Source of the DNA: Bacteroidetes bacterium GWF2_40_14
Lineage (GTDB): Bacteria > Bacteroidota > Bacteroidia > Bacteroidales > UBA932
DNA length: 64,000 bases
NCBI GenBank assembly: GCA_001769195.1
Contig: MEOK01000004.1
Coordinates: forward strand, 62,001-126,000
Reading direction: 5' to 3'
Shown: positions 1 to 52,497 of the stretch, in pieces
Layout: each line of letters begins with the position of its first letter
Numbering within the stretch: the stretch's first letter is position 1
Translations under genes and position numbers: made by a program
The notes under the pieces: model-generated
Databases searched by the model: none
Seen by the model: the letters and a program-made list of their open reading frames with translations, nothing else
Told to the model about the DNA's origin: nothing

Positions 1-2010
1 GATTTCTGGTTTGGTACAGATGGCTGGGGAGTATCAAAATATGACGGCAAAGCCACAACTACCTACACTACAGATGAGGGTCTATGCAACAATGCTATAC
101 GAAAGGTATACCAGGACAGGAATAACAACTATTGGTTTGCATCTTATGGTTCCGGAGTATCTATGTTTGACGGGAAGGAATTTACTAACTACACGAAAAA
201 ACAGGGGCTAAGCGCAAATAATGTTCTTTGCATACAGGAAGACAGCAGTGGTAATATCTGGTTCGGAACAGACGTTGGCGGGCTCACTTGTTATGATGGC
301 AAAAATTTTATCCATTATACAAAAGAACAGGGCTTTTTCAGTAATACCGTCTATAGCATAATGAAGGACAAAGATGGAGATCTATGGTTCGGTACAGGTG
401 GGGAGGGTCTGATAAGGTATGACGGAAAGGTCTTTACAAGATATGCAGACGATGCAGGTCTTAACAACAACCATGTTCTGAGTATAATTCAGGATTCAAA
501 AGGTAATATTTTTGCTGGTACCCGTTTTGGTTTGAATCTGCTTAAGTCTGCCTCTGTAAAAAAGCTCAGGGACAACAAAGTCATGCCACACATCAAGAGT
601 TACAATTATGAAGACGGATTCATTGGCATTGGATGCAACATAGGAGCAATTGCTGAAGATAACGATGGTGACATCTGGATAGGGACAAACGACAGACTTA
701 CTGTTTTTCACACAGACGCCGAGAAGGCAGACTCTGTTCCCATGAGCCTGCAATTAACAAATATTCAGCTTTTTAATGAAAATGTTCCATGGACGGAGCT
801 AGCGTTGAAAAGAGATACAACCATTGTATTGCACAACGGACTGAGTGTTAATAAATTTAAATTCGACAGCATTTCAAGATGGTACGGTCTGCCTGAAAAG
901 CTGAGTCTGTTTCATAAACATAATTATCTCACATTTAGCTTTATAGGCATATCTCACACACAAACAAAAAAATTGAGATACCAATATATGCTTGAAGGCC
1001 TCGACGATAACTGGAATGTTCTTACTGACCGGACAGAGGCATCCTATGGTAACCTGGATTCGGGCCAATACACATTCAAAGTTAAGGCAATGAACAGCGA
1101 AGGCTATTGGAGTAATGAGGTTAGTTATCAATTTTCCATAAGACCTCCGTGGTGGAACACGTGGTGGTTTTATATTTCATCTGTTTTAATTCTGATGGGG
1201 TTAATTTACGGATTAATCATATACAGGGAGAGAAGACTAATGCTCGACAAGCAGATACTCCAAATGAAAGTTGATGAACAAACCCACCAGCTGACAGAAA
1301 AAAACGAAGAGCTTCAAATCATCAACTCAGAAAAAGACAAGCTTTTTTCTATAATAGCGCACGACCTGCGTAGCCCGTTCAGCAGTTTTCTTGGACTTAC
1401 CCAGATAATGGCCGAGGAGTTGGAAACCCTTTCTATGGACCAGCTGCAGGAGATTGCAGGAAGTATGAGGAAATCTGCAACAAATCTGTTCCGATTGCTG
1501 GAAAACCTGCTTCAATGGTCTCGCATTCAACAAGGTTCAATTCCTTTTTATCCTGCTCAGATTGAACTTATCCCTATTGTGGAGGAGAGTATAGCACTTG
1601 TAATTGATTCGGCAAACAAGAAGGGAATTGATATAACTTACGATGTCCCTTACAATACTATGGTTTATGCAGATAGTAATATGTTGCAGACTATTATAAG
1701 AAACATTGTCTCCAATGCGGTAAAGTTTACTGCTAAAAACGGAAAGGTTAACATAGAGGCAAGGACTACAACAAGAAATAGCGTCGAAATATCAGTAAGC
1801 GATACCGGTATAGGAATGAGCAGTTCAATGGTTGACAATCTGTTCAGACTGGGAAGCCAGACAAACAGGACCGGTACCGACGGCGAACCAAGTACAGGAC
1901 TTGGGCTGATTATATGCAAGGAGTTCATTGATAAGCAAGGAGGAAAAATCTGGGTTGAGAGTGAAGAGGGAAAGGGGTCGGTATTCTTTTTTACCCTCAC
2001 CAGCTCTTAA
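1..2010 (+). CDS. Two-component sensor histidine kinase with Reg_prop propeller (5' end cut by window)
   Basis: The frame is open from base 1, so the start lies outside the window; 669 codons are visible. Residues 1 to about 235 carry repeated WFGTD..GL..YDGK units typical of Reg_prop beta-propeller blades. A Y_Y_Y domain follows at about 310-381, a single membrane helix at about 389-408, a short coiled coil, then a kinase core. The phosphorylatable His is about residue 454 in IIAHDLRSPF; the N box (NIVSNAVKF), G1 (DTGIGM) and G2 (STGLGL) are intact. By family knowledge the periplasmic propeller senses a ligand and the core autophosphorylates. Unlike many Bacteroides hybrid regulators it has no receiver or AraC domain, so a separate partner is needed. 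The ligand cannot be inferred. Confidence 0.9.
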   Translation, partial: DFWFGTDGWGVSKYDGKATTTYTTDEGLCNNAIRKVYQDRNNNYWFASYGSGVSMFDGKEFTNYTKKQGLSANNVLCIQEDSSGNIWFGTDVGGLTCYDGKNFIHYTKEQGFFSNTVYSIMKDKDGDLWFGTGGEGLIRYDGKVFTRYADDAGLNNNHVLSIIQDSKGNIFAGTRFGLNLLKSASVKKLRDNKVMPHIKSYNYEDGFIGIGCNIGAIAEDNDGDIWIGTNDRLTVFHTDAEKADSVPMSLQLTNIQLFNENVPWTELALKRDTTIVLHNGLSVNKFKFDSISRWYGLPEKLSLFHKHNYLTFSFIGISHTQTKKLRYQYMLEGLDDNWNVLTDRTEASYGNLDSGQYTFKVKAMNSEGYWSNEVSYQFSIRPPWWNTWWFYISSVLILMGLIYGLIIYRERRLMLDKQILQMKVDEQTHQLTEKNEELQIINSEKDKLFSIIAHDLRSPFSSFLGLTQIMAEELETLSMDQLQEIAGSMRKSATNLFRLLENLLQWSRIQQGSIPFYPAQIELIPIVEESIALVIDSANKKGIDITYDVPYNTMVYADSNMLQTIIRNIVSNAVKFTAKNGKVNIEARTTTRNSVEISVSDTGIGMSSSMVDNLFRLGSQTNRTGTDGEPSTGLGLIICKEFIDKQGGKIWVESEEGKGSVFFFTLTSS

Positions 2011-2067
2011 GAACCATTCAGCCGGAAAATTGTTGTCATATGAATATGGAGAGTGGGAAAAACCCAG

Positions 2068-5000
2068 ATGAGCAACATTAAAAATACTATTATGCCCGTT
2101 ACCGGGCTATCGTGCAGCAATTGTGCCCTGGCAGTCGAGAAAAATGTCCGCAAATTGCCCGGTATAATTGATGCCAATGTAGATTTTGCAGGAGAGAAAC
2201 TTAATGCAACATTTGATCCTTTACAGATTAATGAGAAAGATATAATTACATGTGTCAAACAGGTGGGCTATGGTGTGGCAACAGGTAAGATAGAACTACC
2301 CATTACAGGTTTCCAGGACAATACAGATGCATTAACTCTTGAAAAATTACTCAAAAAACAGAATGGAGTGCTTGAAGCAATTGTTGGCTATGGTACAGAA
2401 AGAGCCACAATCGAATATATTCCCGGAATTGTAAGCATTGCAGAACTTACCGGAATAATAAGGAAGGCAGGTTTTGATCTTGTTCATGCAGGTGACACTG
2501 AAGAGATAGAAGATCTAGAGGCCAGATTGCGTGCGTCCGAACTGACAAAACAGAAGAACCTGCTCATTATAGGTATCATTTTTACCCTCCCCCTCATCGT
2601 TTACAGCATGATGCGTGACTTTCGCATTGTAGGGTTTAATAATGACCAGTATGTAATGCTTTTTGCAGCAACAGTCGTTCAGTTTGTAGTTGGCTGGCAA
2701 TTTTACATAGGAGCATTCAAGAGCCTCCGTTTTGGCAGTGCAAACATGGATGTCCTTATAATGCTTGGTTCGTCTGTAGCATATTTTTCCAGCCTTTGCG
2801 TCACTATAGGAATAATTGACAGCCCCAATGTATATTTTGAGACAGGTGCTGCAATAATAACGCTGATTAAGCTTGGTAAATATTTGGAAACAAGAGCTAA
2901 AGGAAGAACATCTGAGGCTCTGAAGGCACTTATGGGACTGCAGGCAAAGAGAGCTATTGTAATAAGGGACGGTATAGAAACAGAAGTAAACATCGACCAG
3001 GTTGTTGTAGGAGACACCCTGGTAGTTCGTCCAGGAGAGAAGGTACCTGTTGATGGAATTATAAGTGAAGGGAAGTCGGCATTTGAGGAATCAATGATAA
3101 CAGGTGAATCTATGCCTGTTGTAAAGGGACCAGGTAACGAGGTAATAGGTTCAACTATAAACAGAGAGGGGTTGATAAGATTCGAAGCCACAAAAGTAGG
3201 AAAACAGACCACGCTGGCTCAGATAGTGAAACTAGTCCAACAAGCTCAGGGCAGCAAGGCTCCTATACAGAAACTTACAGATGAAATTGGGAAGTATTTT
3301 GTACCTGTCATAATAGGGATTGCAATATTTACTTTTATTGGCTGGATATGGGTTGCCCAGCTGGACTGGACAGGAGCCATGATCAATGCTATTGCCGTAC
3401 TGGTGATTGCGTGCCCTTGTGCAATAGGACTTGCTACTCCTACTGCAATTATGGTAGGAACCTCAAAGGGAGCAGAAAATGGAATCTTGTTCAAAAACAG
3501 TGAAGTTCTTGAACGAGCAGGCAGTATGAACATTGTAGTGCTTGATAAAACAGGGACAATAACTACGGGAGAGCCAAGTGTTACTGATATTATTGCACTT
3601 GAAAATCAGAATCCGGAAGAAATCCTTCGTCTGGCAGCCAGTGCAGAACTCGGTTCGGAACATCCTCTGGGGCGGGCTATTGTAAAAGATGCAAATGAAA
3701 AAGGAATTGAACTTTCTGATCCCAAACAGTTTCGCTCGCACAGCGGTTTTGGGATAAGGGCAATCGTAGACTATCAGTCTCTTATTATTGGGAATCCGCG
3801 GATGATGCAGAATGAAGGAATCAACATTGAACTTCTTGAAAAAGATATACTAAGGCTACAGAAGGAGGGCAAGACCACAATGATAGTGACTGTTGGTCCC
3901 ATTGACGAAAGTGCACCTCCGGTGCCTGTAGGTTTGATAGCAGTGGCCGATACAATAAAACCCGGAGCAAATGCGGCCATTGCAGAACTGAGAAAACTTG
4001 GCCTCGATATTATTATGATTACCGGAGATAATCAGAATACTGCTGATGCAATTGCCAGGCAGGCTGGTATAGAAAGGGTTCTGGCTGAGGTATTGCCTGC
4101 AGACAAGGCAGAGGCAATAAAGAAACTGCAAACATCAGGCTCTTTAGGTAATTATGCTCACCCGACCGTGGCGATGGTTGGCGATGGAATTAATGATGCT
4201 CCGGCTCTGGCTCAGGCAGATGTTGGAATTGCAATTGGCACCGGCACCGACATTGCTATGGCTACCGCTGGTATCACACTTATAAGCGGAGAGTTGTCAG
4301 GAGTGGGTAAGGCTATAGCATTATCAAGGGCCACGTCGCAGACAATTGTCCAGAATCTCATATGGGCACTGTTTTATAATGTTGCACTTATACCTATTGC
4401 TGCCTATGGTTTGCTTAGCCCCATGTTTGCGGCAGGAGCAATGGCGTTCAGTTCAATATTTGTCATTACCAACAGCCTCCGTTTGAGAAAGTTCAAGGTA
4501 CAGACATTTGCTCCAAAAAAATCATTGCTTAGACAGGGTTTGGAACTATTGCCCCGGATTGTTGCTCCGGCCGTTGCTCTGGCTGTTCTTATTGTAGGTC
4601 CAATGCTTCTGATGCCCGGGGCCGATATGGAGATTAAAGGGGCAAATGCCGGTGAGATGACACCTTTCCTGATGATGGTTATGGCAATTTCCAACGCGTT
4701 GATAGCCGTAGCATATGCCTCTATTCCATTTTTCCTGATAGTCTTTGTGAGAAAACGAAAAGACATGCCTTTTACCTGGATAATATTCCTGTTTGGACTA
4801 TTCATCCTTGCATGCGGCACTACTCATATTATGCATGTTATAGGCCTTTGGTGGCCGGTGAACTGGGGTCAGGCTACTGTGGATGCAATTTGTGCAATTA
4901 TTTCAATTGCAACGGCAGTTGCAGTATGGCCCGTCTTGCCAAAGCTTTTATCCATTCCAAGTCCAGGTCAGCTAAAGAAGGTAAACATAGAGCTGCAGAA

Positions 5001-5847
5001 GGCATACGACCAGGTTGAGATTCGAGTAAAAGAGCGTACGGAGGAACTGATGATAGCAAACAAAGCATTAAGGGATGAAATTATCCAGCATAAAAAAGCT
5101 GAAGAGGAGATAAGACGGCTTAACGAAGAGCTTGAACAGAGGGTTATCCAACGAACAGCTCAATTAGAGGCAATTAATAAGGAGCTGGAATCTTTCAGCT
5201 ATTCTGTCTCTCACGACCTGCGTGCACCATTAAGGCACATTAGCGGTTTTGCAGAGATGTTGTCGGAAGACGCTAAAGATCTGTTGTCAGAAACACCACT
5301 ACATTACCTGACCGTTATTAACGATTCTGCCAAAAAAATGGGAGTTTTGATTGACGATCTGTTAAGCTTTTCAAGAACCGGCAGGGCAGAAATGAAAATG
5401 ACAACCTTTAAAATGAGTCAACTTGTTGGAGAGGTTCAATCGCAGATACAATCTTCATATTTGGAAAGAAGTATTAAGTGGAACATTAATCATTTGCCTA
5501 TAGTTGCTGGAGATTATAATTTATTGCGCCAGGTCTGGATAAACCTGCTTGACAATGCTGTAAAGTACACAAAAACAAGAGGAGAGACCATTATAGATAT
5601 TGATTGCAAGGAGAATAAGGAGGAGTTTATCTTCTCGGTCGGGGATAATGGGGTGGGCTTTGACATGAAGTATGCATCAAAGCTATTTGGTGTGTTTCAG
5701 CGGTTACATACATCACAGGAGTTCGAGGGAACCGGCATAGGACTGGCCAATGTCAGAAGGATTATTCTAAAACACGGAGGACGAACATGGGCAGATGCCA
5801 GTCCGGATAAAGGTGCGACTTTCTATTTTACTTTACCTAATTTATGA
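2068..5847 (+). CDS. CopA-type copper P-ATPase fused to ETR1-like ethylene/copper sensor domain and histidine kinase
   Basis: The ATG at 2068 gives 1259 residues; an in-frame GTG at 2053 is less likely. Residues 1-65 form an HMA copper-binding domain with C16SNC19; a second HMA (about 73-145) has lost CxxC. The P1B-ATPase follows: TGES near 345, the metal-site CPC at 449-451, phosphorylated D493 in DKTGT, and GDGINDAP at 705-712. After pump helix 8 there is an extra hydrophobic segment (about 830-852). Three helices (about 866-960) then match the ETR1 sensor domain: AYASIP at 882-887, and C916-GTT-H920 matching ETR1 Cys65/His69; the ETR1 Asp25 position is Asn876. A coiled coil and a phytochrome-type kinase core follow (H1049 in [11 protein letters not shown]1163, GTGIGL). 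Known: in plants the pump RAN1 loads copper into ETR1. Inferred: pump and sensor act as one unit detecting copper or ethylene. The next gene overlaps by ATGA. Confidence 0.9.
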
Positions 5848-6410
5848 ATAAACAAATATCGATGGAAGCAAAATTACAGATTCTTTCTTTGGAAGACAAT
5901 ATACAGGACTTCGAGCTGATATGCGAAAACCTTAAAAGTTCAGGGATAAGTATGATAATAACGCGAGTCGACAACAAACGTGATTTTTTATATTCCCTTC
6001 AAAATAACAAGTACAATGTAATCCTGGCTGATTTCAATTTGCCTGGATTCGATGCTTTCGGGGCACTGGAAATATGTAACGAAATAAGCCCCGACCTCCC
6101 TTTTATCTGTGTATCAGGATCCATTGGCGAGGAAACGGCAATCGAGCTTATTAAACTAGGGGCAGTGGATTATGTTTTAAAAGATAGACTTGTCAGGCTA
6201 CCTGTTGCAATAAAGCGTGCTCTTGATGAAGCGAAGGAAAAAGAGATAAGACGTTTGGCGGAAGAGTCACTTAAAGTAAAGATGAAAGAGTTGCAACGTT
6301 TCCATGATCTCACGGTTGGGAGAGAACTTGCAATGATAGAATTAAAAAAAGAGGTAAATGAACTTCTATTGAAATCGGGTCAGCAGGAGAAGTATAAAAT
6401 TGTAGGATGA
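5844..6410 (+). CDS. Single-domain response regulator with C-terminal coiled coil
   Basis: This protein has 188 residues. Its ATG overlaps the stop of the copper-pump/sensor kinase (ATGA), which implies translational coupling. Residues 10-130 are a receiver domain: acidic pair E17/D18, phospho-acceptor D63 in [11 protein letters not shown]91, and K113 in VLKDR. The tail (about 130-188) is charged and helical with no DNA-binding or enzymatic domain. It is the obvious phosphate acceptor for the upstream kinase and would pass the signal by protein contact or phosphotransfer, possibly to the next gene product. That wiring is inferred from gene order only. Confidence 0.88.
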
Positions 6411-6428
6411 CATAGTAATACTGTTATT

Positions 6429-8069
6429 ATGGTGAGAGGTAATATAAAGATACTTGCTATCGACGACAATGACGACAATCTTTTGTCATTGAGCGCATTG
6501 ATATGTGAGATGTTTCCAGAGGCAACCGTACTTACAGCTAATAGTGGAGAAAAGGGACTCTTGCTTGCTGAGAAAGAGGACCCCCATGTTATTCTTCTTG
6601 ATATATTAATGCCAGGGATGGATGGCTATGAAGTTTGTAAAAGGCTCAAGTCCGACAAGAAATTATCGAGAATTCCGGTTGTTTTTATCACTGCTCTAAG
6701 AAGCGACAAGGAGAGCAGGATAAAGGCCCTTGAGTGTGGAGCCGAAGCATTCATTACCAAACCTATGGACGAATATGAGCTTACGGCTCAGATACAGGCA
6801 ATGCTAAAGATCAAAGAAGCAAATAACCGTAACGACATAGAAAATGAACTACTGACTGCACTGGTTGAAGCCAGGACTAGTGAGCTTAACGAAACCCATA
6901 AAGCAACACTTAATCTTCTGGAAGATTTGAGCAACGAGAATATTGCCCGTAGAAGAAGTGAGGAGGCACATCGTACAAGTGAGAGGCAGATGCGGACACT
7001 TTTCCAGACAATTCCCGACATGATCTGGCTTAAAGATAAGGAGGGTGTATACCTGGCCTGTAACACTATGTTCGAGCGTTTTTTCAATCATCCCGAGTCG
7101 GAGATTTCAGGTAAGACCGATTATGACTTTGTTAGTCAGGAATTTGCTGATTTTTTTCGCGAAATGGATCGTATAGCTATGGAAGCGGGTAAGCCCTCAG
7201 TAAATGAAGAGTGGATAACTTTTGGAGATGACGGGCATCTTGCACTTTTAGAGACAATAAAGACACCGGTGTACGGATCGCAGGGGGAGCTTATCGGTGT
7301 CCTGGGCATAGGGCGCGACATAACACAGAGGTACCAGTCTGAGCAGGAGCTGATTAAGGCAAAAGATAAGGCAGAAGAGAGCAATCGTCTTAAAACTGCT
7401 TTTCTTGCCAATATAAGTCATGAGATACGTACTCCACTCAACAGTATTCTGGGCTTTGCAGAAATGCTTAAAGAACCAGGTCTTTCAAGAGAAGATCGTC
7501 AGGAATTCATCGGTTTTATTGAGATGGGTGGGAAAAGGATGCTAAGTATAATAAACGACCTGATAGATATTTCCAAGATTGAGGCCGGTCTTACGGAGGT
7601 TAATATTTCTAGTTATAGCTTAAACGAGCAAATAGATGATCTTTATGGTTTTTTCAAACCCGCTGCGGAACAAAAAAACTTAGAGTTTCTTGTTCATAAA
7701 GGTTTGTCGGATTACGATACTGTAATAAATTCAGACAAAAGCAAGGTTGATGCGATTCTGATAAACCTAATCAAGAATGCACTTAAATTCACATCTGTCG
7801 GAACGATAGAACTAGGATACGAAAAGAAGGGCGCCCTTATTGAGTTTTATATTAAAGATACCGGAATAGGAATAAAACCGGAAAAACAGGAGCTGATTTT
7901 TGAAAGGTTCAGACAAGGAAGCGAATCAGTTACTAGGAGCTTCGAGGGGTCGGGTCTGGGTCTTTCAATTTCAAAAGCATACGCAGAGATGCTAGGCGGA
8001 AGGCTATGGGTAGAAAGTGAGCCCGACAAAGGCTCCACCTTCTACTTCACCATTCCCCATATATCCTAA
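6429..8069 (+). CDS. Hybrid sensor kinase: receiver-PAS-HisKA-HATPase
   Basis: The product has 546 residues and no membrane helix, so it is probably cytoplasmic. The N-terminal receiver spans about 5-125 (D58 in LLDILMPG, K111). A coiled coil leads to a PAS domain at about 187-305 with a PAC-like end (GVLGIGRDIT). The kinase core has H331 in [12 protein letters not shown], the N box INLIKNALKF, DTGIGI and GSGLGL. The gene begins 18 bases after the preceding response regulator and is probably in the same operon. With an N-terminal receiver it may be an intermediate in a phosphorelay that starts at the copper-pump/sensor kinase. Its 3' end overlaps the convergent outer-membrane protein gene by four bases. 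Confidence 0.9.
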   Translation: MVRGNIKILAIDDNDDNLLSLSALICEMFPEATVLTANSGEKGLLLAEKEDPHVILLDILMPGMDGYEVCKRLKSDKKLSRIPVVFITALRSDKESRIKALECGAEAFITKPMDEYELTAQIQAMLKIKEANNRNDIENELLTALVEARTSELNETHKATLNLLEDLSNENIARRRSEEAHRTSERQMRTLFQTIPDMIWLKDKEGVYLACNTMFERFFNHPESEISGKTDYDFVSQEFADFFREMDRIAMEAGKPSVNEEWITFGDDGHLALLETIKTPVYGSQGELIGVLGIGRDITQRYQSEQELIKAKDKAEESNRLKTAFLANISHEIRTPLNSILGFAEMLKEPGLSREDRQEFIGFIEMGGKRMLSIINDLIDISKIEAGLTEVNISSYSLNEQIDDLYGFFKPAAEQKNLEFLVHKGLSDYDTVINSDKSKVDAILINLIKNALKFTSVGTIELGYEKKGALIEFYIKDTGIGIKPEKQELIFERFRQGSESVTRSFEGSGLGLSISKAYAEMLGGRLWVESEPDKGSTFYFTIPHIS

Positions 8070-8602
8070 TGAATCGCCAGCCCTATTGTAGATACACCAC
8101 TTGACAGGTCAAGAAATACACCAAGTTTATTAGTTATGTGGTATTCCGCTCCTGCGTGAAAATCAAGAAACAATGGTGCTCCCCTGTTATAATCGTCCCT
8201 GCTACCTGTATATCCATTGTCCCATGTTGTGCCGCGAAGCGCAAAACCTAGTGAGCCAGCCAGATAGAAATCCCATCTTGGATTTGCATTAAGCAGATAG
8301 TCAAAGTAATAGGTTCCTCTTACTCCCATTGGGACAACAATTTCACGATAGTTATCCTTGTGGTATGTGTAGAATGTGACAAAAGGGGCCAAAGTGAAGT
8401 TCCGTGCCACATCAAACTCGTAATTAGCATGAAATACAGGTACTATAGTGCCCACATATCCATAATAACCAGCATAACCTCCAAGACCCAGACCTAGATT
8501 CAAGGTATTGCCATACCTCTCATTATCAAACCTTCCCTGTGCAAATATACTTGTTACAGAGATTAGCAGAAGGAATAAAATAGTTGTTGTTAATTTTCTC
8601 AT
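8066..8602 (-). CDS. Exported outer-membrane beta-barrel protein
   Basis: The ATG at 8602 is preferred over an upstream in-frame start at 8647, because it places a clear signal peptide (MRKLTTTILFLLLISVTSIFAQ) at the N-terminus. The mature part is about 155 residues of alternating aromatic and glycine-rich strands (LGLGLGGYAGYYGY, then GAEYHITNKLGVFLDLSSG near the end), as in small eight-stranded outer-membrane barrels. No enzymatic motif is seen. It faces away from the next barrel gene (8813) across a roughly 210-base gap. Function is unknown; a structural or adhesive envelope protein is plausible. Confidence 0.8.
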   Translation of the reverse strand: MRKLTTTILFLLLISVTSIFAQGRFDNERYGNTLNLGLGLGGYAGYYGYVGTIVPVFHANYEFDVARNFTLAPFVTFYTYHKDNYREIVVPMGVRGTYYFDYLLNANPRWDFYLAGSLGFALRGTTWDNGYTGSRDDYNRGAPLFLDFHAGAEYHITNKLGVFLDLSSGVSTIGLAIH

Positions 8603-8812
8603 TTTGTTTTGTTTATAGTAAATAATAATAACGACACAAAGTTGCAAAACTATAATTCAGATATATTACATAACTAGTTCCATTTGTTACATCATTCACA
8701 CATACCAAAAACCTGCGAATTATGTAACATTCTCTCAAAAAAATATAACAACTCACATGTTCGATAGTCTCAACTTTGAGGCGTTAATATTTTTATATAA
8801 AACAACAGAATA

Positions 8813-9451
8813 ATGAAAAAAGCTATTTTAATGACCGTTTTTGCAACTCTTATGCTAAGCAGTAGTTTTGCCCAGAAAAACGGAATCAGTTTCAGGGAAA
8901 AATTATCCTTCGGACTAAAGGGAGGTGTGAATATATCAAATGTGTATGACTCAGAAGGTGAGCAATTTAATGCAGACGCGAAATTTGGCCTGGCAGCAGG
9001 TGCATTTGCATCAATACCACTAGGGAAATTTTTTGGTGTTCAGCCTGAAATATTGTTCTCACAAAAAGGATATAAGGGATCGGGTTCAATATTGGGCAGT
9101 AGCTACAGTTTTACCTATACAAGCAATTTTATTGATGTGCCCTTATTATTTGCGTTAAAACCCATTTCTCTGATTACAATAGTGGCCGGTCCGCAGTATT
9201 CGTTTCTTATAAGCGACAAGTATGAGTTTAACAGCGCAATAGTCAACACAAATCAGGAGAACGAATTTAACAACGACAACATCAGGAAGAATATACTATG
9301 TTTCCTTGGTGGCATTGATTTTAACCTGAGCAGATTAGTTATAGGAACCAGAATTGGTTGGGATATACAAGCAAATAAAGGTGACGGTACATCAACCACT
9401 CCACGATATAAGAATGTCTGGTATCAGGCTACAATAGGATTTAGGTTCTAG
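8813..9451 (+). CDS. PorT-like outer-membrane beta-barrel protein
   Basis: The product has 212 residues. A signal peptide (MKKAILMTVFATLMLSSSFAQ) is followed by a barrel pattern characteristic of the Bacteroidota outer_membrane_beta-barrel (PorT-like) family: FGLKGGVNISNV at the first strand, FGVQPEILFSQKGYKG, then IDVPLLFALKP, and a terminal aromatic strand YQATIGFRF. The C-terminal Phe fits recognition by the BAM complex. Function within this large family cannot be assigned. It has its own transcription unit between a divergent barrel gene and the CheB-CheR fusion. Confidence 0.82.
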   Translation: MKKAILMTVFATLMLSSSFAQKNGISFREKLSFGLKGGVNISNVYDSEGEQFNADAKFGLAAGAFASIPLGKFFGVQPEILFSQKGYKGSGSILGSSYSFTYTSNFIDVPLLFALKPISLITIVAGPQYSFLISDKYEFNSAIVNTNQENEFNNDNIRKNILCFLGGIDFNLSRLVIGTRIGWDIQANKGDGTSTTPRYKNVWYQATIGFRF

Positions 9452-9522
9452 TTGATGAAATGTGATTATTTTTTGCGTTATTTGTACTAACAAGAATGTG
9501 ATTTCCTTTAATATTGGCACAG

Positions 9523-12459
9523 ATGAAACCTCCAAAACTAATCTCTCCTCTGGATGTAATAGATAAACCTCATGAATTGCAACCGGAACATTTTCCAATT
9601 GTTGCAATAGGGGCATCTGCAGGGGGACTTGAGGCATTGGAGCAATTATTAAGTGCAGTTCCTGGTAATACCGGAATGGCATTTGTTGTTATTCAACATC
9701 TGGATCCCACTCATAAAGGTATGTTGCCGGAGTTGTTGCAGAGAGTCACAAAAATGAAGGTTGAGCAGGTTAAGGACCGTATGGTCGTAAAAAGCGACAC
9801 TGTCTATGTAATTCCGCCAAACGCCAGCATGTCAATATTACAAGGGGTCCTGCATCTCTTTGAACCGGCTGAGTCGAGAGGGCTCAGATTACCTATAGAC
9901 TTCTTTATGCGGTCACTGGCAGATGACTTAATGGAATATGCGGTTGGAATTGTCCTTTCTGGAATGGGTTCCGATGGAAGCGTAGGTATGAAAGCTATAA
10001 AAGAGAATAATGGTATAGTTATGGTTCAGGATCCTGCTGATGCAAAATTTGACAGCATGCCTCGTAATGCTATGGAAGCCGTAGTTATTGATATTGTAGC
10101 TCCAGCTAAAGAGTTGCCTTCAAAACTGATTGATTTGATAAAACATTCTCCTGTAGCAAAAAAGAGTGTCGAAACGGATGTCAGAGATAACAGCGCTCTG
10201 GAGAAAATTATTATACTGCTAAGAACTGTTACAGGCAACGACTTTTCTCTTTATAAAAAAAATACCGTATACAGGCGTATAGAGAGAAGAATGGGAGTTC
10301 ATAAAATTGAAAAGATATCTTTGTATGTCAATTTTTTGCTGGAAAACCCAAAGGAGCTTGAAATCCTTCTTAAAGAACTGTTGATAGGAGTTACGAGTTT
10401 TTTCCGCGATGGTGCAGTATGGGAAAAGTTGAAGGAGACAATCATTCCTTCAATTATTGCCAACAAACCCCTCGGTTCTCAGTTACGTTCCTGGATAGTA
10501 GGATGCTCAACCGGAGAAGAGGCCTATTCCATGGCCATTGTCTTTAGAGAGGTGGTTGAGAAATTAAATCCAAACGGAGGGTATTCATTACAGATATTTG
10601 CCACCGATCTTGACAACGAAGCCATAGAGACTGCCAGAAAGGGACTTTATCCACTAAATATTGAGGCAGATGTTTCATCAAAAAGGCTCAGCCGTTTTTT
10701 TATAGCATCGGACGAAGGCTACAGGGTAAAAGCAGAAATAAGGGAGATGGTGGTTTTTGCCAAGCATAATATTATTTCACATCCGCCATTTACAAAAATA
10801 GATATTTTGAGCTGTCGTAACCTACTCATTTACATGGATGTTGAGTTGCAGAAAAAACTACTGGGGCTTTTCTACTATAGTATTATACCTGAGGGATATA
10901 TGGTGCTTGGGAGTGCAGAAACCCTGGGATTACAGAGTACTACATTTTCACAAGTAGATGCGAAGTTGAAAATTTATAACCGTTCTTTTCCATCGGTCTC
11001 CCCGGAATCATATGATTTCCCATCTTCCTTTTCCCGGTCGAGACCTGTTGTTGATAAGAATGATTATCAGGTCCCGGTGAATAAAACGCAGAACATACAA
11101 ACACTCGCAGATCAATTATTGCTGCAAAATTTTTCACCACCGGGAGTTTTAGTGAACGATAAAGGTGATATTATCTATATAAGCGGCCATACAGGAAAAT
11201 ATCTTGAACCAGCAGTGGGTAAAGCAAATATGAATATTTTCGCTATGCTTAGGGAAGGTCTGCGAAACGAATTCTCTTCTGCTTTCCGAAAGGCCATCTC
11301 AAAGAAGGAGCTAGTAGTCGTACACAATATTAAAGTTGGTACAAACGGCGGTTCTCAAATAATAAACTTAAGTATTCAGTGGATAGACAAGCCTGATCAA
11401 CTGAATGGAATGTTAATGATAATTTTTACTGACGTTACAAAATTGTCATCCTTAATGGATTTGGATAAAAAAGCAGGAAAGGCATTACAGACTGTCCGTC
11501 AGGCCGAAATGGAGAAGGAGTTGCAGCTTTTAAGAGAAGAGCTTCAAAACACGATGGAAGAGATGCAGACTTCTCAGGAGGAACAAAAATCTACTAATGA
11601 AGAGTTGCAATCTACTAATGAAGAGTTGCAGTCAAGTAATGAAGAGCTTACTACCTCTAAAGAAGAGATGCAGAGCCTTAACGAAGAGCTTCAGACCGTC
11701 AACGCAGAATTACAGACAAAAATTGACGACTTTACGAATGTAAGCAATGATATGAAAAATCTGCTTAACAGCACAGACATTGCAACACTGTTCCTCGACA
11801 AGAATTTGAATATCCGTCGTTTTACCACTCAGGCAACCAGTATTTTCAAGTTAATAAAAAGCGACATTGGCCGGCCTTTAACTGATCAGGTTTCTGACCT
11901 TGTTTATCCGGAATTGGTTTCCGATGCCAAAGGGGTACTGAAGTCACTTGTTTTTGTTCAAAAGCAGGTACCTACAAAGGACGGACGGTGGTTTTCCATT
12001 CGTATTATGCCATATAGGACATTCGACGACAGGATTGACGGGCTTGTCATTACATTTGTCAATATTTCTGATATAAAACGAATAGAGCTACAATTGCAGG
12101 AGAGAGTGCAAATGTTTAACCTGATCCTTGAAGCATCGTCTGATATAATAATTAAATTATCGCCGGAATGGGACATTACTGAGTTTAATGCTGAGGCAGA
12201 GAAATTTTTCGGTTTGAAGAGCCAGAGTGCATTGAACCAGAATTTTATAAAACTTTTTGTTCCGGAACAGGAACAAAAGAGAGTTGAATTGCAAATGAAC
12301 AAACAACTTAAGGATACCCAGGGGGGAATCTTTAAAATGCAAATGAAAGGAGCAGATGGAACATTATCGGATGTAGAGTGGACGGCAAAGAGACTTTTCA
12401 ACGACAACAATACTATAGCAGGAATGATTATAATAAACAAAAAAATATCTAAGTCATGA
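9523..12459 (+). CDS. CheB-CheR methylesterase/methyltransferase fusion with coiled coil and PAS domains
   Basis: The ATG at 9523 is preferred to a TTG at 9514; it gives 978 residues. A CheB methylesterase domain (about 25-190) has the catalytic triad S32 (GASAGG), H59 (IQHLDP) and D151 (GMGSDG), but no receiver domain in front. A CheR methyltransferase domain (about 205-470) carries the SAM-binding GCSTGEEAYSMA motif. A PAS-like region leads to a long coiled coil with repeated NEELQS units (about 660-745), then two PAS domains (about 750-860 and 870-975). Such fusions are common outside classical chemotaxis and are thought to modify or scaffold sensor kinases. No cheA, cheW or receptor gene is visible. 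The stop overlaps the next PAS gene by ATGA. Confidence 0.93.
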   Translation: MKPPKLISPLDVIDKPHELQPEHFPIVAIGASAGGLEALEQLLSAVPGNTGMAFVVIQHLDPTHKGMLPELLQRVTKMKVEQVKDRMVVKSDTVYVIPPNASMSILQGVLHLFEPAESRGLRLPIDFFMRSLADDLMEYAVGIVLSGMGSDGSVGMKAIKENNGIVMVQDPADAKFDSMPRNAMEAVVIDIVAPAKELPSKLIDLIKHSPVAKKSVETDVRDNSALEKIIILLRTVTGNDFSLYKKNTVYRRIERRMGVHKIEKISLYVNFLLENPKELEILLKELLIGVTSFFRDGAVWEKLKETIIPSIIANKPLGSQLRSWIVGCSTGEEAYSMAIVFREVVEKLNPNGGYSLQIFATDLDNEAIETARKGLYPLNIEADVSSKRLSRFFIASDEGYRVKAEIREMVVFAKHNIISHPPFTKIDILSCRNLLIYMDVELQKKLLGLFYYSIIPEGYMVLGSAETLGLQSTTFSQVDAKLKIYNRSFPSVSPESYDFPSSFSRSRPVVDKNDYQVPVNKTQNIQTLADQLLLQNFSPPGVLVNDKGDIIYISGHTGKYLEPAVGKANMNIFAMLREGLRNEFSSAFRKAISKKELVVVHNIKVGTNGGSQIINLSIQWIDKPDQLNGMLMIIFTDVTKLSSLMDLDKKAGKALQTVRQAEMEKELQLLREELQNTMEEMQTSQEEQKSTNEELQSTNEELQSSNEELTTSKEEMQSLNEELQTVNAELQTKIDDFTNVSNDMKNLLNSTDIATLFLDKNLNIRRFTTQATSIFKLIKSDIGRPLTDQVSDLVYPELVSDAKGVLKSLVFVQKQVPTKDGRWFSIRIMPYRTFDDRIDGLVITFVNISDIKRIELQLQERVQMFNLILEASSDIIIKLSPEWDITEFNAEAEKFFGLKSQSALNQNFIKLFVPEQEQKRVELQMNKQLKDTQGGIFKMQMKGADGTLSDVEWTAKRLFNDNNTIAGMIIINKKISKS

Positions 12460-13004
12460 ATAACGATGATCTGAATTTTACTGATCCCCACATGCTGAGA
12501 ATCAAAGCAGAAGAAAAACTTAAAAAAAGTGATGCTTTAAAACGGGCTTCTGAGTCTGAAACTGACATAAAAAAGCTAACACATGAACTTCAGGTGCATC
12601 AGATTGAGTTGGAGATGCAAAACGAAGAGCTGACTATTGCTTATGAAACAGCTGAAGAGGCCCTCAGAAAATTCACTATGTTATACGATCTGGCACCTAT
12701 CGGCTACTTTATTCTTGATGTAGAGGGTACCATTCATGATTTGAACTTTACTGGAGCCGAAATGCTCGGAGATAGAAGGTTTAGCCTCATAAACAGTAAT
12801 TTCAAATTATTTATCACAGAACAATCAATGTCTGAATTCAGCAACTTCTTCACAAAGGTTTTTGTCAGCAACGCAAAAGAATCTTGTAATGTGTTGCTTG
12901 GTTATTACAACAATCCATTATGTCAGGTTTACATGGAAGGAATCGTTACAGGCGAAGACCGGAAATGCCTGTTGTCTTTAGTTGACATTGAGCGGTTTAA
13001 GTAG
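12456..13004 (+). CDS. Coiled-coil PAS-domain protein without output domain
   Basis: The product has 182 residues and its start overlaps the CheB-CheR stop (ATGA), so the two are likely translationally coupled. Residues 15-75 form a charged helix with QIELEMQNEEL, a motif usually found just before PAS sensors in kinases. A PAS domain follows at about 73-180 (LYDLAPIGYFILD near the start). No kinase, cyclase or DNA-binding domain follows, so it is a stand-alone sensor or adaptor, or a remnant of a longer sensor. The stop codon is immediately followed by an octamer repeat tract, so the true end could have been altered by that insertion. Confidence 0.8.
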   Translation: MNNDDLNFTDPHMLRIKAEEKLKKSDALKRASESETDIKKLTHELQVHQIELEMQNEELTIAYETAEEALRKFTMLYDLAPIGYFILDVEGTIHDLNFTGAEMLGDRRFSLINSNFKLFITEQSMSEFSNFFTKVFVSNAKESCNVLLGYYNNPLCQVYMEGIVTGEDRKCLLSLVDIERFK

Positions 13005-13067
13005 TTAATTTGCTAATTTGCTAATTTGCTAATGTGCTAATGTGCTAATGTGCGAATGTGCTAATGG
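13005..13067 (+). repeat. Octamer tandem repeat (TAATTTGC/TAATGTGC), copy 1
   Basis: About seven tandem octamers start right after the TAG stop of the PAS gene: first TAATTTGC units, then TAATGTGC units (one with GAATGTGC), ending in TAATGG. The same tract, in the same orientation relative to the upstream gene, occurs at 19247-19308 and, inverted, at 22445-22500. Because 8 is not a multiple of 3, the tract places TAA in all three forward frames and TAG in all three reverse frames. Confidence 0.9.
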
Positions 13068-13318
13068 ATAAGGGGCGGGATTTGTAGATGCTTGGTTGGA
13101 GGCTTTGGGTACCCAATTAAGGAGCATTGCGTTGAAAAAAACAACAAGCGGAAACCATGCAGCCATATATACCGGCTAAATAAGTTTCCGCATTTGTTTT
13201 TGACTGATCGAACATTTGTGGGAATTTTGCAACTTTTCTCTTTAATTGTGTAATATGTTGTCTGTTTAAAAGAGGAACTTTATACTGTGAAAACGATTTC
13301 ACGGTAATAACAAGTAAA
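13068..13318. other. Intergenic region upstream of csbD with a hairpin
   Basis: With the preceding octamer tract, this makes a gap of just over 300 bases without a gene. A GGGTACCC sequence at about 13107, related to the dispersed GTACC element, is visible. A hairpin lies 16 bases before the csbD start: stem CTGTGAAA (13285-13292), loop ACGA, arm TTTCACGG (13297-13304). The hairpin could be an operator or an mRNA leader structure. I see no convincing small gene. Confidence 0.5.
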
Positions 13319-13504
13319 ATGAACACAACTGAAGCAAAGGGTAACTGGAACGAGACAAAAGGCAAGCTAAAACAGAAATTCGCCATCTTAACTGACAATG
13401 ATCTTTTGCTCGCGGAGGGCAAAGAAGAGGAGTTATATGGCAGGTTGCAAATCAAGCTGGGTAAATCAAAAGAAGAGTTGCACAAAATTATTTCGGAACT
13501 GTAA
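13319..13504 (+). CDS. CsbD-family stress protein
   Basis: The product has 61 residues. It matches the CsbD family pattern: a start like GNWNETKGKLKQKFA, then LTDNDLLLAEGKEEELYGRLQ and a helical end. CsbD proteins are small, highly charged, induced by general stress in many bacteria and of unknown biochemistry. The gene lies next to a small membrane-protein gene (17 bases apart), a pairing often seen for stress-response loci. An 8-bp hairpin just upstream of the start may take part in control. Confidence 0.85.
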   Translation: MNTTEAKGNWNETKGKLKQKFAILTDNDLLLAEGKEEELYGRLQIKLGKSKEELHKIISEL

Positions 13505-13521
13505 TTATTCCGGAAATTCTT

Positions 13522-13734
13522 ATGAAAACAATTGGAATCATAATTATTGTCATTGGCCTTGGATTAGCTGCGTTCTCTTTTGTAACAGTTTTTACCAAAG
13601 AGAAAGTAGTTGATTTAGGGAAACTCGAAATCACCAGGGACAAACCTCATAATCTTAATGTGTCGCCTCTTGTGAGCATAGCCGTTATTGGTTTAGGGGG
13701 TATTTTGGTATGGCTTTCATATAAGAAAAAGTAA
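13522..13734 (+). CDS. Small two-helix membrane protein
   Basis: The product has 70 residues with two hydrophobic helices, about 3-25 (TIGIIIIVIGLGLAAFSFV) and 48-66 (SPLVSIAVIGLGGILVWLS), joined by a polar loop and ending in a Lys-rich tail. It resembles DUF3185-type small inner-membrane proteins that often accompany CsbD. Function is unknown. It lies 17 bases after csbD and probably shares its transcript. Confidence 0.7.
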   Translation: MKTIGIIIIVIGLGLAAFSFVTVFTKEKVVDLGKLEITRDKPHNLNVSPLVSIAVIGLGGILVWLSYKKK

Positions 13735-13840
13735 CAAACCACCTGCTTGCTGTTCTTCTACTACCCACAACATAAGTTAAGGATTGCAACAATTTTCAAA
13801 TATCAGGGTGTCGGCAACAGGTGGTTTAATCTAAATAATC

Positions 13841-15178
13841 ATGAAAGAATCCAAGATGGGTGCTCGATCGGCAGAGTTGCTCAAAGCTAATAAAGAGTTA
13901 GCCTTTCAGAATGAAGAGAAGGAAAAACGTGCTGCGGAGTTACTCATAGCAAATAAGGAACTTGTCTTTCAGAATAAAGAGAAAGAGAAACGTGCAGCAG
14001 AGTTACTTATCGCTAATAAGGAGTTGGTTTTTCAAAATAATGAAAAGGAGAAACGAGCGGCAGAGTTAATCATAGCAAACAAAGAACTTGTCTTTCAAAG
14101 TAAAGAGAAAGGGAAACGAGCGGCAGAATTATTAATCGCCGACAAGGAACTGCTATTTCAAGGCAAGGAGAAAGGGAAGCGAGCAGCGGAGTTACTTATA
14201 GCCAATAAAGAGCTGGTTTTTCAAAACAGAGAGAAGGAAAAACGTGCTGCAGAATTACTAGTCGCCAACAAAGAGCTTGTCTTTCAAAACGAAGAGAAGG
14301 AGAAGCGTGCTGCGGAATTAATAATTGCCAACAAAGAGCTTGTCTTTCAAAACAAAGAGAAGGAAAAGCGTGCTGCAGAGTTGCTTATTGCCAATAAGGA
14401 ACTTGTCTTTCAAAATAATGAAAAAGAAAAGCGTGCTGCAGAGTTAATAATAGCTGACAAGGAGATAGTAATCCAAAATGAAGAAAAGGTTAAGCAAGTA
14501 GCAGAAAATAAAGAGCTTGAAGCATTCAGTTACTCTGTTTCTCATGATTTAAGGGCTCCACTCAGACATATAGGTGGTTTTGTAGATTTGTTAATTAAAA
14601 ACAGTGCCTCACAACTGGACGAAACCGGGCTTAGGTATTTGAACATCATTTCTGAATCGGCCAATGAAATGGGGAACCTGATAGATGCATTGCTGACATT
14701 TTCGAGATTAAGCAGAACGGAATTGCAACGGACGAGAATTGTTTCAAAAAACATAGTCAATCAGGTGGTCAAGACCTTTCACGAAGAATTGGGGGACAGG
14801 AATATTAAAATAAACATATCGGACCTTCCAGATGTAAAGGGAGACGAAATCTTAATCAGCCAGGTATGGGTAAATCTAATCTCCAATGCATTTAAATACA
14901 CCCGTAATGAAAAGAAGACTGTAATTAAGATAGGAGGAAAGACAGATAAGAATTATACAACATTTTACATTAAGGATAACGGTGTAGGATTCGACATGAA
15001 GTATGTTGATAAACTATTTGGTGTTTTCCAGAGGCTCCATAAAGCCAGAGATTTTGAGGGGATAGGAATAGGACTTGCCAATGTAAACAGAATTGTGGTG
15101 AGGCATGGTGGAAAGTGCTGGGCAGAGAGCGAAGTAGGTAAAGGCGCAACGTTTTTTTTCAGTATACCTGAAGTATAA
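13841..15178 (+). CDS. Cytoplasmic histidine kinase with nine 21-residue coiled-coil repeats
   Basis: The product has 445 residues. Residues 24-212 are nine near-identical 21-residue units (consensus xxEKEKRAAELLIANKELVF plus Q), preceded by one diverged unit. Twenty-one residues are three heptads, so the region is one long parallel coiled coil (signalling helix) with no PAS, GAF or membrane segment. The kinase core follows: H235 in [13 protein letters not shown], the N box NLISNAFKY, DNGVGF and GIGIGLAN. It is close in sequence to the kinase end of the copper-pump/sensor fusion (shared [15 protein letters not shown]), so the two cores are paralogous. A Rcp1-like receiver gene follows at once and is the likely partner. 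Input probably comes from another protein. Confidence 0.9.
   Translation: MKESKMGARSAELLKANKELAFQNEEKEKRAAELLIANKELVFQNKEKEKRAAELLIANKELVFQNNEKEKRAAELIIANKELVFQSKEKGKRAAELLIADKELLFQGKEKGKRAAELLIANKELVFQNREKEKRAAELLVANKELVFQNEEKEKRAAELIIANKELVFQNKEKEKRAAELLIANKELVFQNNEKEKRAAELIIADKEIVIQNEEKVKQVAENKELEAFSYSVSHDLRAPLRHIGGFVDLLIKNSASQLDETGLRYLNIISESANEMGNLIDALLTFSRLSRTELQRTRIVSKNIVNQVVKTFHEELGDRNIKINISDLPDVKGDEILISQVWVNLISNAFKYTRNEKKTVIKIGGKTDKNYTTFYIKDNGVGFDMKYVDKLFGVFQRLHKARDFEGIGIGLANVNRIVVRHGGKCWAESEVGKGATFFFSIPEV
13910..14476 (+). repeat. 63-bp tandem repeat inside a kinase gene (nine units)
   Basis: Nine in-frame 63-bp units encode the 21-residue coiled-coil repeats of the kinase at 13841. 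Codon choice varies between units (for example CGTGCTGCGGAG, CGAGCGGCAGAG), so most copies are not recent duplications. Unit number could still change by recombination, in steps of exactly three heptads. Confidence 0.92.
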
Positions 15179-18424: not shown

Positions 18425-19249
18425 ATGAGTGTATCAAGTAACAAAACAGTACCGGCAATACTAATAACATTAATTGTTATTCTTGCCATAACAAGCGGTT
18501 TGCTGCTAAAGGCAAACTACACAAAAAAGACAAATCTTAAGTCAGAGCTGACCAGGTCTGAACAGTTATTGTCCGAAAAACTTACAATAGAGGCTGAGTT
18601 GGATAAAACTAAAGCAGCCGTTGTGGATTTACAGACAAAGCAGGCCGACAAGGAAGCAGAGCTTGCAGAGATTCAAGGCAAACTATACGAGAGGGAAAGA
18701 AGGATAAAAGTGTTGTCCGGGGTAAACACAGAACTTCTAAAAAGCCGGATTGAAGCAGCAGAGCTTAGAAAGGCAAAAGCCGATCTTGAGAAGGAGCAGG
18801 CAGATTTAAAATTGAGTTATAAGGCAAGTGAAAAAGAAATTGAGACTTATAAATCTACTATTGGCGCGATGGAGGCCCAAAAGACTATTCTTAATGCCCG
18901 GCTTGAGAAGGCATTGACCTATAACACCGATAATTTTTTGATTAACGCAACAAAATGGCTCAAGAAGGAAAAGCTTACAACAAGAGCGGTGAGAGCTAAA
19001 AAGCTAACCGTTACTTTTGATATTCCAACAAAGCTGACAGATAAGGTGAGTTTCAAATTGGTTTCGCCTTCTGGCAACATTGTAAGTTCAGACGACAATT
19101 CAATCACACTTATTTCAAAAGATAACCTGAATTCAAGAGAAATTGAATTTACCTATACCCCTCTTGGGAAAATGGAGAAAGGCATATACAAGATTGAGAT
19201 ACAATATAAAGGCAACGTTATAGGCAACTCCAGGATACAATTCAGGTAA
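18425..19249 (+). CDS. Membrane-anchored coiled-coil protein (paralogue A)
   Basis: The product has 274 residues. It has a single N-terminal membrane helix (about 10-29, PAILITLIVILAITSGLLL), a long Glu/Lys-rich coiled coil (about 35-165) and a C-terminal beta-rich domain (about 175-274; KLTVTFDIPTKLTDKVSFKLVSPSG). It is clearly paralogous to the product of 21548, with identical stretches such as YNTDNFLINA. The two copies bracket an OmpR-type two-component system, so they are candidate targets or partners of it. No family name is known to me. The TAA stop is the first three bases of an octamer repeat tract. Confidence 0.8.
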   Translation: MSVSSNKTVPAILITLIVILAITSGLLLKANYTKKTNLKSELTRSEQLLSEKLTIEAELDKTKAAVVDLQTKQADKEAELAEIQGKLYERERRIKVLSGVNTELLKSRIEAAELRKAKADLEKEQADLKLSYKASEKEIETYKSTIGAMEAQKTILNARLEKALTYNTDNFLINATKWLKKEKLTTRAVRAKKLTVTFDIPTKLTDKVSFKLVSPSGNIVSSDDNSITLISKDNLNSREIEFTYTPLGKMEKGIYKIEIQYKGNVIGNSRIQFR

Positions 19250-19308
19250 TTTGCTAATTTGCTAATTTGCTAATTTGCTAATGTGCTAATGTGCTAATGT
19301 GCTAATGG
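19247..19308 (+). repeat. Octamer tandem repeat (TAATTTGC/TAATGTGC), copy 2
   Basis: Four TAATTTGC units are followed by three TAATGTGC units and TAATGGG. The first TAA is the stop codon of the coiled-coil gene at 18425. The order (TTTGC units, then GTGC units, then GG) is the same as in the tract at 13005. It is followed by a GTACC/GTCCCC-type dispersed element at about 19320-19375. Confidence 0.92.
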
Positions 19309-19402
19309 GTTAATTGGAGGTACAAGGTACACAATGTGCGTCCCCATATATCCACCCATGTACCCACCCATGTGTCTTTATTAAAATTATGTACATTTGT
19401 GC

Positions 19403-22444: not shown

Positions 22445-22500
22445 GCACATTAACCCATTAGCACATTAGCACATTAGCACATTAGCACATTAGCACATTA
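22445..22500 (-). repeat. Octamer tandem repeat, copy 3 (inverted)
   Basis: On the minus strand the tract reads TAATGTGC five times, then TAATGGGT, then TAATGTGC. The first TAA (22500-22498) is the stop codon of the GH20-like gene. Orientation relative to the upstream gene is the same as in the tracts at 13005 and 19247. Confidence 0.9.
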
Positions 22501-44921: not shown

Positions 44922-45144
44922 GCCGTTTGCAAAGATATAAAAGAATGCGCTAAATCAGGTGTTTAGCGCACTCTTTATTGCGAAAACGGCTTGATAAATA
45001 TGTCGATATATAATTGTATGATTTTGCCGGATGTTCGACAACTATGTGTAATTTGTTGTATTTCAATACGTCAAAGAACAATTTATATAGATATTATTCA
45101 AAAACCACGGAGAAAAGCAAAAAAACATTGTAACCGACAACCTG
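44922..45144 (-). promoter_or_regulatory. CRISPR leader with array promoter and palindrome
   Basis: An AT-rich gap between cas2 and the newest repeat. A -7 box TATCTTTG lies on the minus strand at 44937-44930, so the transcript would start at the leader/repeat border. The -33 area is covered by a hairpin, GCGCTAAA (44947-44954) and TTTAGCGC (44962-44969). An outer inverted repeat GCCGTTT (44922-44928) and AAACGGC (44984-44990) encloses both and abuts the first repeat. Confidence 0.7.
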
Positions 45145-45145
45145 T

Positions 45146-45409
45146 TTATATGAAATTGTCTATGCTACATCTCTCTTTACCAACAATTTGCTTCTCCATC
45201 CAGCGTTCGTCAGAATTTTTAAACAGAATGATGCTATCGACCTCTTTATCCATGATTATGTCTACCTTCAAAAGTAACTCTTTAAGTTTTACTTCACTAA
45301 TTTCTCCTTCAAATACTGAATTCTGAATCCAACACAGATATTTCCGGCAAAGTCGTAAAATTTTACCAACTCTTTTTTCTCCAACATCATATACAAGAAT
45401 TACATACAT
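45146..45409 (-). CDS. cas2: CRISPR adaptation protein Cas2
   Basis: The product has 87 residues from the ATG at 45409; a TTG two codons upstream is less likely. It starts MYVILVYDVGEKRV, the classical Cas2 first strand with the Asp of the family, then LRLCRKYLCWIQNSVFEGEI. Cas2 forms the dimer between Cas1 dimers in the spacer-integration complex. Its start overlaps the cas1 stop by one base (TAATG). It is the last cas gene before the leader. Confidence 0.95.
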   Translation of the reverse strand: MYVILVYDVGEKRVGKILRLCRKYLCWIQNSVFEGEISEVKLKELLLKVDIIMDKEVDSIILFKNSDERWMEKQIVGKERCSIDNFI

Positions 45410-46937: not shown

Positions 46938-46965
46938 AATTTAAAATGGTAAAAGACAATTTATA

Positions 46966-51004: not shown

Positions 51005-51010
51005 GATTTA

Positions 51011-52441: not shown

Positions 52442-52497
52442 ATTATAATAGATGAAAAATGCGTTTAATCCCAAAAAAGCTTATTCACTTAAATTAT

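Follow-up and report, generated by a model that had tools for sequence, protein, structure and literature searches.

A recurrent bacterial fusion of a copper P-ATPase, an ETR1-type sensor and a histidine kinase that may report copper passing through its own pump

The window analyzed here is a stretch of 64,000 nucleotides (contig MEOK01000004.1, positions 62,001 to 126,000) from the genome assembly of Bacteroidetes bacterium GWF2_40_14 (GCA_001769195.1), and it contains a gene, at 2068..5847 on the + strand, whose single product joins an HMA domain, a second HMA-like fold, a Cu+ P1B ATPase, a linker helix, an ETR1_N sensor, a connector helix, and a histidine kinase, in that order. This pump-sensor-kinase architecture is genuine and recurrent, the fused sensors share a pattern of residues and fall into one group, and the sensor has decayed in a relative that lacks the kinase. 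Because the set of residues likely to bind copper is altered in these sensors, they may report copper leaving via the pump to which they are joined. The interpretation that we favor, and hold with about even confidence on the basis of sequence, is that the fusion would be a self-supplied copper sensor kinase, reporting the copper that flows through its own pump.

The gene is a single open reading frame (ORF) of 1259 amino acids from the ATG at 2068, with neither a stop nor a frame break. The ORF listing also offers an alternative GTG start at 2053, and the position of the ATG at 2068 is the first in-frame start in many relatives (longer N-terminal starts of some rows were trimmed in the alignment of relatives). 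Pfam matches, each above its cut-off, follow one another in the order HMA (residues 11-68), E1-E2_ATPase (291-470), Hydrolase (488-718), ETR1_N (868-963), HisKA (1041-1103), and HATPase_c (1148-1257), with no match to a PAS or GAF domain. The combination of HisKA (5188..5376, +), carrying the probable phospho-acceptor His1049, with HATPase_c (5509..5838, +) identifies the C-terminal part as a two-component histidine kinase, and a predicted helical connector (residues 966-1040; 4963..5187, +) leads to it from the sensor, with a block predicted local distance difference test (pLDDT) score of 61-80 for residues 971-1030 of the structural model. An earlier note on this DNA had described one polypeptide with an HMA domain, a complete pump, an ETR1-like sensor, and a histidine kinase, and had suggested a joint profile search for the E1-E2 ATPase, the ETR1 sensor, and HisKA; the ORF and Pfam agree with that description, and all three profiles match in one frame. 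The ORF also contains no frame break between pump and sensor, an event that the note had raised against its own proposal, and the fusion recurs in other assemblies. Because the same fusion is found in many separate assemblies, a chimeric assembly or frame break is ruled out.

Relatives were sought by scanning the genome_contigs collection with patterns from the pump-sensor junction, which returned 30 loci, 28 of them close relatives. Two loci (L055 and L056) are only distant P-ATPases, four (L051-L054) lack an intact sensor, one with a degenerate sensor (L050) was treated apart, and the other 23 (L027-L049) carry an intact sensor fused to the pump. Because the scan needed a pump-end or sensor peptide, losses of the pump are less readily seen than losses of the sensor. 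Hidden Markov model (HMM) searches of whole genomes with PF25487, the ETR1_N profile, added six fused loci (L011, L013, and L058-L061), of which four have sensors nearly or fully identical to those of genome_contigs loci; HisKA is present in five of the six, and L060 is cut before that point. The kinase lies in the same chain in 20 of the 23 intact-sensor loci. L046 is cut by the contig end (and L040 at its 5' end), while in L027 and L036 the chain finishes with PAS/GAF domains, and a separate histidine-kinase gene comes 22 and 18 bases downstream, respectively. These last two are also the only exceptions among 22 full-length members (window included), all of which have HMA, pump, and ETR1_N and 20 of which have HisKA and HATPase_c. 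In both loci (L027, 5769-16090; L036, 5772-12458), where the sensor is intact and no kinase is present in the chain, the output looks as if it had moved to the neighboring protein.

The pump, sensor, and connector of the relatives are 54-76% identical to those of the window, and record titles assign the relatives to Bacteroidota, Desulfuromonadales/Geobacter, Deltaproteobacteria, Chlorobiota, and Verrucomicrobia, all as metagenome-assembled genomes. The distribution is sparse: when fused and stand-alone forms are counted together, ETR1_N was found in 1 of the 199 genomes from the taxonomic family to which the window belongs, namely the source genome itself, and in 21 of 395 genomes of its phylum, with three fused among the 20 that were read (phylum match G148 lies outside these 20). 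Four pattern matches in viral contigs included no relative of the fusion. At least 10 plasmid records cover at least 80% of the query, and the seven matches listed consist of two pieces, a P-type ATPase gene plus a separate kinase or ATP-binding gene; the sensor alone matched 19 plasmid records, all at less than 60% identity.

The sensor (residues 868-963; 4669..4956, +) was assigned by Pfam and by alignment to AtETR1, and its match to PF25487 covers profile positions 2-97 of 97 with 110.4 bits (E = 5.3e-32; cut-off, 27), while by sequence no relative was found in the PDB up to E = 1. Numbering follows the AtETR1 sequence, against which published positions check out. The key residues are Asn876 (Asp25 in ETR1), Tyr883, Ile886, Pro887, Ile913, Cys916, and His920, together with His923 (Asn72 in ETR1), Gln935, and Asp939 (Lys91 in ETR1), and the alignment bears out the earlier reading of AYASIP and CGTTH as containing the equivalents of Tyr32, Ile35, Pro36, Cys65, and His69. 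Six of the seven ethylene-binding residues of ETR1 (D25, Y32, I35, P36, I62, C65, and H69) are therefore present, D25 being N. The same six are kept in all 30 fused sensors that were counted (27 distinct), and in all 30 Asp25 is replaced by Asn and Lys91 by Asp, so that the D25-K91 pair predicted for ETR1 is absent; the earlier note had remarked on neither change. Among 35 stand-alone sensors, position 25 is D in 32, N in 2, and S in 1, and position 91 is K in 22, L in 7, R in 5, and Q in 1, and never Asp. Both Asp25 and Lys91 are present in the stand-alone sensor of Azospirillum brasilense Sp 7 (L084), which we presume to be AzoEtr1. Met869, Met870, Met872, and Gln935 are common to the fused sensors and occur in none of the 35 stand-alone ones, and His923, likewise common to the fused sensors, occurs in one.

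Because the scan patterns contained parts of the Met and Trp/Gln motifs, the genome_contigs loci are biased for these residues. The set obtained by HMM only is free of that bias, and in this set Met869/870/872, His923, Gln935, and Asp939 are found in 7/7 fused versus 0/25 stand-alone sensors, and Asn876 in 7/7 versus 2/25. The sensor comparison left out both L001 and L006 (the window itself) and seven loci that are partial, broken, or weak (L050, L053, L012, L072, L074, L079, and L081). In an unrooted tree a single branch divides all the fused sensors from AtETR1 and the stand-alone sensors. Given this grouping, repeated independent fusions are not favored, with the proviso that the trees are unrooted and draw on few columns. 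The earlier suggestion of an ancient partnership behind RAN1 and ETR1 finds no link to plants here, the fused sensors forming one group apart from AtETR1. A second departure from the Asp25/Lys91 pattern was seen in seven stand-alone sensors (L018, L057, L067, L068, L069, L070, and L080), in which ETR1 position 91 is occupied by Leu and position 72 by Asp; three of the seven also lack Asp25.

The residue pattern bears on the main rival explanation, namely that the fusion is a true receptor for ethylene (or another small unsaturated gas) whose copper is loaded in cis by its own pump, in effect RAN1 and ETR1 in one chain. Besides the six binding residues kept in 30/30 fused sensors, this explanation can draw on the transfer of copper from RAN1 to ETR1 described for the plant in excerpts of PMC12586476, and on AzoEtr1, which has the same core and is reported in excerpts of PMC11819568 to be a functional ethylene-binding protein. 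However, the latter excerpts (2025) also state that mutation of Asp25 eliminates ethylene binding in ETR1, with Asp25 predicted to position His69 and bond Lys91; Asp25 and Lys91 are both replaced in every fused sensor. Because Asp25 is Asn in the fused sensors and its mutation abolishes binding in ETR1, an ordinary ethylene receptor is doubtful, and the reading of these proteins as ETR1-type ethylene sensors in the plain sense, as in the earlier note, finds no support. Asn at position 25 alone may not exclude binding, since 2/35 stand-alone sensors also have it. The loss of Asp25 counts against a receptor for ethylene that loads copper from a pump of its own, an explanation that is, in our estimation, unlikely.

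Between the last helix of the pump and the sensor, hydropathy and the positive-inside pattern predict a further transmembrane helix (residues 828-849; 4549..4614, +), which is present throughout the sensor-bearing rows and corresponds to a helix at 820-848 in a low-confidence AlphaFold model. Basic residues lie next to the predicted cytoplasmic sides, which would place the N-terminus of the sensor outside. The stretch that spans the end of this helix and the start of the sensor (residues 846-872; 4603..4683, +) is rich in methionine across the 23 aligned rows: Met849, 864, 869, 870, and 872 are present in 23/23, Met854 in 22/23, and Met846 in 19/23, so that 6/7 Met columns versus 2/20 non-Met columns are conserved in at least 22 of the rows. 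On a helical wheel, whose angles are those of an ideal helix and not of a structure, Met872, Asn876, Gln935, and Asp939 deviate by no more than 26 degrees from the core face of the helix to which each belongs. The AlphaFold model, built with 23 rows (mean pLDDT, 63.6; predicted template modeling score, 0.45; sensor blocks, 41-57), was used as secondary structure only; at that level it supports a pair of HMA-like folds, the linker helix, the three helices of the sensor, and a connector that forms one long helix.

The pump part begins with the HMA domain (residues 11-68; 2098..2271, +), in which Cys16 and Cys19 of the CxxC motif are invariant in 23/23 rows. A second HMA-like fold without CxxC seems to come after it (about residues 73-133; 2284..2466, +), as judged from predicted secondary structure (block pLDDT, 68-84); it has no Pfam match, Pfam scoring the first HMA only. 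Profiles, motifs, and matches to solved structures identify residues 160-806 (2545..4485, +) as a Cu+ P1B-1 ATPase, in which Glu258, Glu274, CPC (449-451), DKTGT (493-497), GDGIND (705-710), Tyr770-Asn771, and Met792/Ser795-Ser796 are invariant in 23/23 rows; CPC, DKTGT, GDGIND, Tyr-Asn, and MxxSS are the P1B-1 signature motifs. The pump scores 574.7 bits with the copper-translocating profile TIGR01511 (NCBIfam; cut-off, 397) and, with the stricter CopA equivalog PRK10671, 563.9 bits, below the cut-off of 1316. Its closest solved structures by sequence are copper pumps: the whole pump matches CopA-type exporters (PDB 3j09, 3rfu, and OsHMA4 8q73), the glutamates of FET and LE line up within the aligned segment that was displayed, and all five signature motifs are present. 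Unlike these exporters, the fusion has about 450 additional C-terminal residues, comprising the sensor and kinase. We infer that the pump exports Cu+. No second P1B pump was found in the source genome, which is 97.5% complete; its other P-type ATPase frames (C21, C38, and C42) are partial matches at 27-38% identity that, in the parts seen, have no CPC motif and, in our reading, resemble calcium-type pumps. A second pump at more than 40% identity was likewise not found in one further fusion-bearing genome. That the fusion serves as the cell's only copper pump was considered and rejected, a second pump being present in 5/7 fusion-bearing genomes.

The scheme that we infer for a kinase reporting copper flow extends to active transport, topology, direct handover of Cu+, the ligand, the signal, and the direction of the response. 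The HMA domain and CPC pump would take up cytoplasmic Cu+ and release it on the periplasmic side, and the extra linker helix would turn the chain so that the N-terminus of the ETR1-type domain faces outward, as it does in ETR1. A portion of the exported Cu+ would then be caught by the methionines of the outside loop and first sensor helix, with His923, Asn876, and Asp939, and passed on to the Cys916/His920 site, where it would be held with help from His923 and Asp939. Occupancy of this site, perhaps modified by a small ligand, would change the helices, and the connector would relay that change to HisKA/HATPase_c, from which the signal would go to the response regulator encoded next to the fusion. 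More tentatively, and with clearly less confidence than in copper reporting itself, we propose that these fusions could constitute a distinct receptor class, in which the pump loads the metal site of its own sensor in cis, across the membrane; the kinase reads transport flux, not standing concentration; the acidic residue has shifted out of helix 1 (Asp25) into helix 3 (Asp939); and a Met/His relay has been gained.

Conservation and loss within the family indicate that the sensor seems to serve the kinase. Of the 253 pairs formed by the 23 core rows, 222 show stronger conservation in the sensor than in the pump. All five of L050-L054 have kept the pump and have lost the kinase, along with the sensor in whole or in part, and the pump tree places these losses at least three separate times inside the fused group. 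L042, L050, and L052 share gene neighbors: L042 is a full fusion with HisKA, HATPase_c, and a receiver, while L050 and L052 are without a kinase, the next gene in L050 lying 12 bases on, on the opposite strand. The L050 sensor is degenerate and has lost the equivalents of Tyr32, Pro36, and His69. Between the syntenic sisters L042 and L050, the ratio of nonsynonymous to synonymous substitution (dN/dS) is 0.351 for the sensor and 0.069 for the pump, with unequal dS (0.874 versus 1.723), and in three kinase-bearing pairs it is 0.019, 0.022, and 0.025 for the sensor and 0.051-0.075 for the pump; these ratios are rough because synonymous distances are large in most pairs, and the window-L028 pair yielded none for sensor or pump. 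The option raised in the earlier note that the domain reports pump or copper state fits best.

Several observations weigh against the interpretation of the fusion as a reporter of its own copper flow. In 31/253 pairs the sensor shows no greater conservation than the pump, sensor decay is seen in one degenerate case, that of L050, and in the kinase-bearing pair L028-L041 dN is 0.112 for the sensor versus 0.091 for the pump (sensor dS was not computable). The HMM-only set holds seven fused sensors, among which two pairs are 95% identical, and because the fused sensors form one group their shared residues partly reflect common descent. On the helical wheel, Met870 deviates from the core face by 146 degrees and Met869 and His923 by 46-54 degrees, and the face of the third helix is set by one core residue, Ser946, while the AlphaFold model is poor and too weak for handover geometry. 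The second pumps in five of the seven fusion-bearing genomes are CopA-like (44-47% identity; two are partial frames), and no copper genes were recognized beside the fusions, where most neighbors were clustered only and not identified.

It is also conceivable, though we consider it improbable, that the copper site is only structural and that the kinase responds to another signal, such as one received by the PAS domains found in many relatives, with the pump merely maturing the protein. PAS matches in at least 15 of 22 members, and a total length that varies from 1278 to 2451 amino acids among complete sensor-and-kinase loci, are consistent with such a role; however, no PAS domain was matched in the window protein, over whose full length L033 and L044 can be aligned with no large insert, and the sensor is the better conserved part in 222/253 pairs. 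Finally, regulation of the attached pump by the sensor and kinase, with copper or a ligand in the ETR1-type domain adjusting ATPase activity, would suit a covalent fusion whose linker helix is present throughout the sensor-bearing rows, but it is highly unlikely given that the L050 pump is equally constrained (dN/dS 0.069 versus 0.051-0.075) despite its decayed sensor and missing kinase, and that five relatives (L050-L054) keep the pump without the rest.

The gene for a response regulator of 188 amino acids (5844..6410, +) follows the fusion with an ATGA overlap at its stop and encodes a probable partner. It is followed in the same direction by a receiver-PAS-histidine kinase of 546 amino acids (6429..8069, +), and a propeller (Reg_prop/Y_Y_Y) histidine kinase lies upstream of the fusion, also in the same direction (163..2010, +). 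A receiver-domain gene is directly downstream in 11/19 loci with an in-chain kinase and a known next gene, in 0/5 of L050-L054, and in neither L027 nor L036, where a kinase follows; these receivers were called by sequence start, and six were confirmed by Pfam. Several signaling genes stand together across 163-15178, with a few other ORFs in between: the propeller kinase, the fusion, the receiver, the receiver-PAS-kinase, a CheB-CheR-PAS protein, and a repeat kinase. This last histidine kinase (13841-15178), whose N-terminal part consists of about nine head-to-tail repeats of 21 amino acids (63-base-pair unit), is the genome's best match to the kinase of the fusion (49% identity). Elsewhere in the window, short arrays of an 8-base-pair unit (TAATGTGC/TAATTTGC) occur at 13006-13066, 19247-19314, and 22445-22500, and 42873-53271 holds a clustered regularly interspaced short palindromic repeat (CRISPR) array with the repeat GTTTCAATTCCAATATGGTACGATTAAGGG, along with Cas1, Cas3, a DevR/Csa2-type protein, and Cas6, of a type I-like system.

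CbrA is a transporter-histidine kinase fusion whose transport part is sodium/solute symporter-like. Such fusions likewise join a transport unit covalently to a histidine kinase, while the fusion described here has an ATP-driven metal pump and a separate metal sensor. Among known systems that come close, Arabidopsis ETR1 with the separate protein RAN1/HMA7 shares with it a copper P-ATPase, a three-helix Cu+ sensor, histidine-kinase output, and Tyr32, Ile35, Pro36, Ile62, Cys65, and His69. In contrast with that pair, the fusion is one chain with an additional linker helix, the window protein has no GAF match, and the sensor has Asp25 replaced by Asn, Lys91 by Asp, and added Met, His, and Gln. 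The bacterial ethylene receptors AzoEtr1 and SynEtr1 also combine ETR1_N with a histidine kinase, and excerpts of PMC11819568 report a response regulator adjacent to AzoEtr1; unlike the fusion, AzoEtr1 begins with the sensor, has no pump, and has Asp at 25 and Lys at 91 (PMC11819568, excerpts). The excerpts seen of two papers on microbial ethylene receptors (PMC7700396 and PMC6682694) contain no word beginning with ATPase, and in those of a paper on a Bizionia copper ATPase (PMC11213822) the histidine-kinase and fusion passages concern other things. In agreement with the earlier statement that no protein of this architecture had been described, no published description surfaced in searches of an open-access library, as far as excerpts reveal, and an earlier mention is possible.

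The ETR1 copper site is treated in PMC12643061 and PMC6586836, and how Cu+ reaches a buried site of this type is still being worked out in plants, according to excerpts of PMC12586476. The pump-sensor fusion fixes copper donor and acceptor in one chain, which makes copper transfer directly testable. Moreover, the conserved Asn, Asp, Met, and His changes amount to a natural mutagenesis of the site, through which the binding of copper and that of ethylene can be told apart. If the kinase does respond to flux through its own transporter, this would be an unusual form of sensing.

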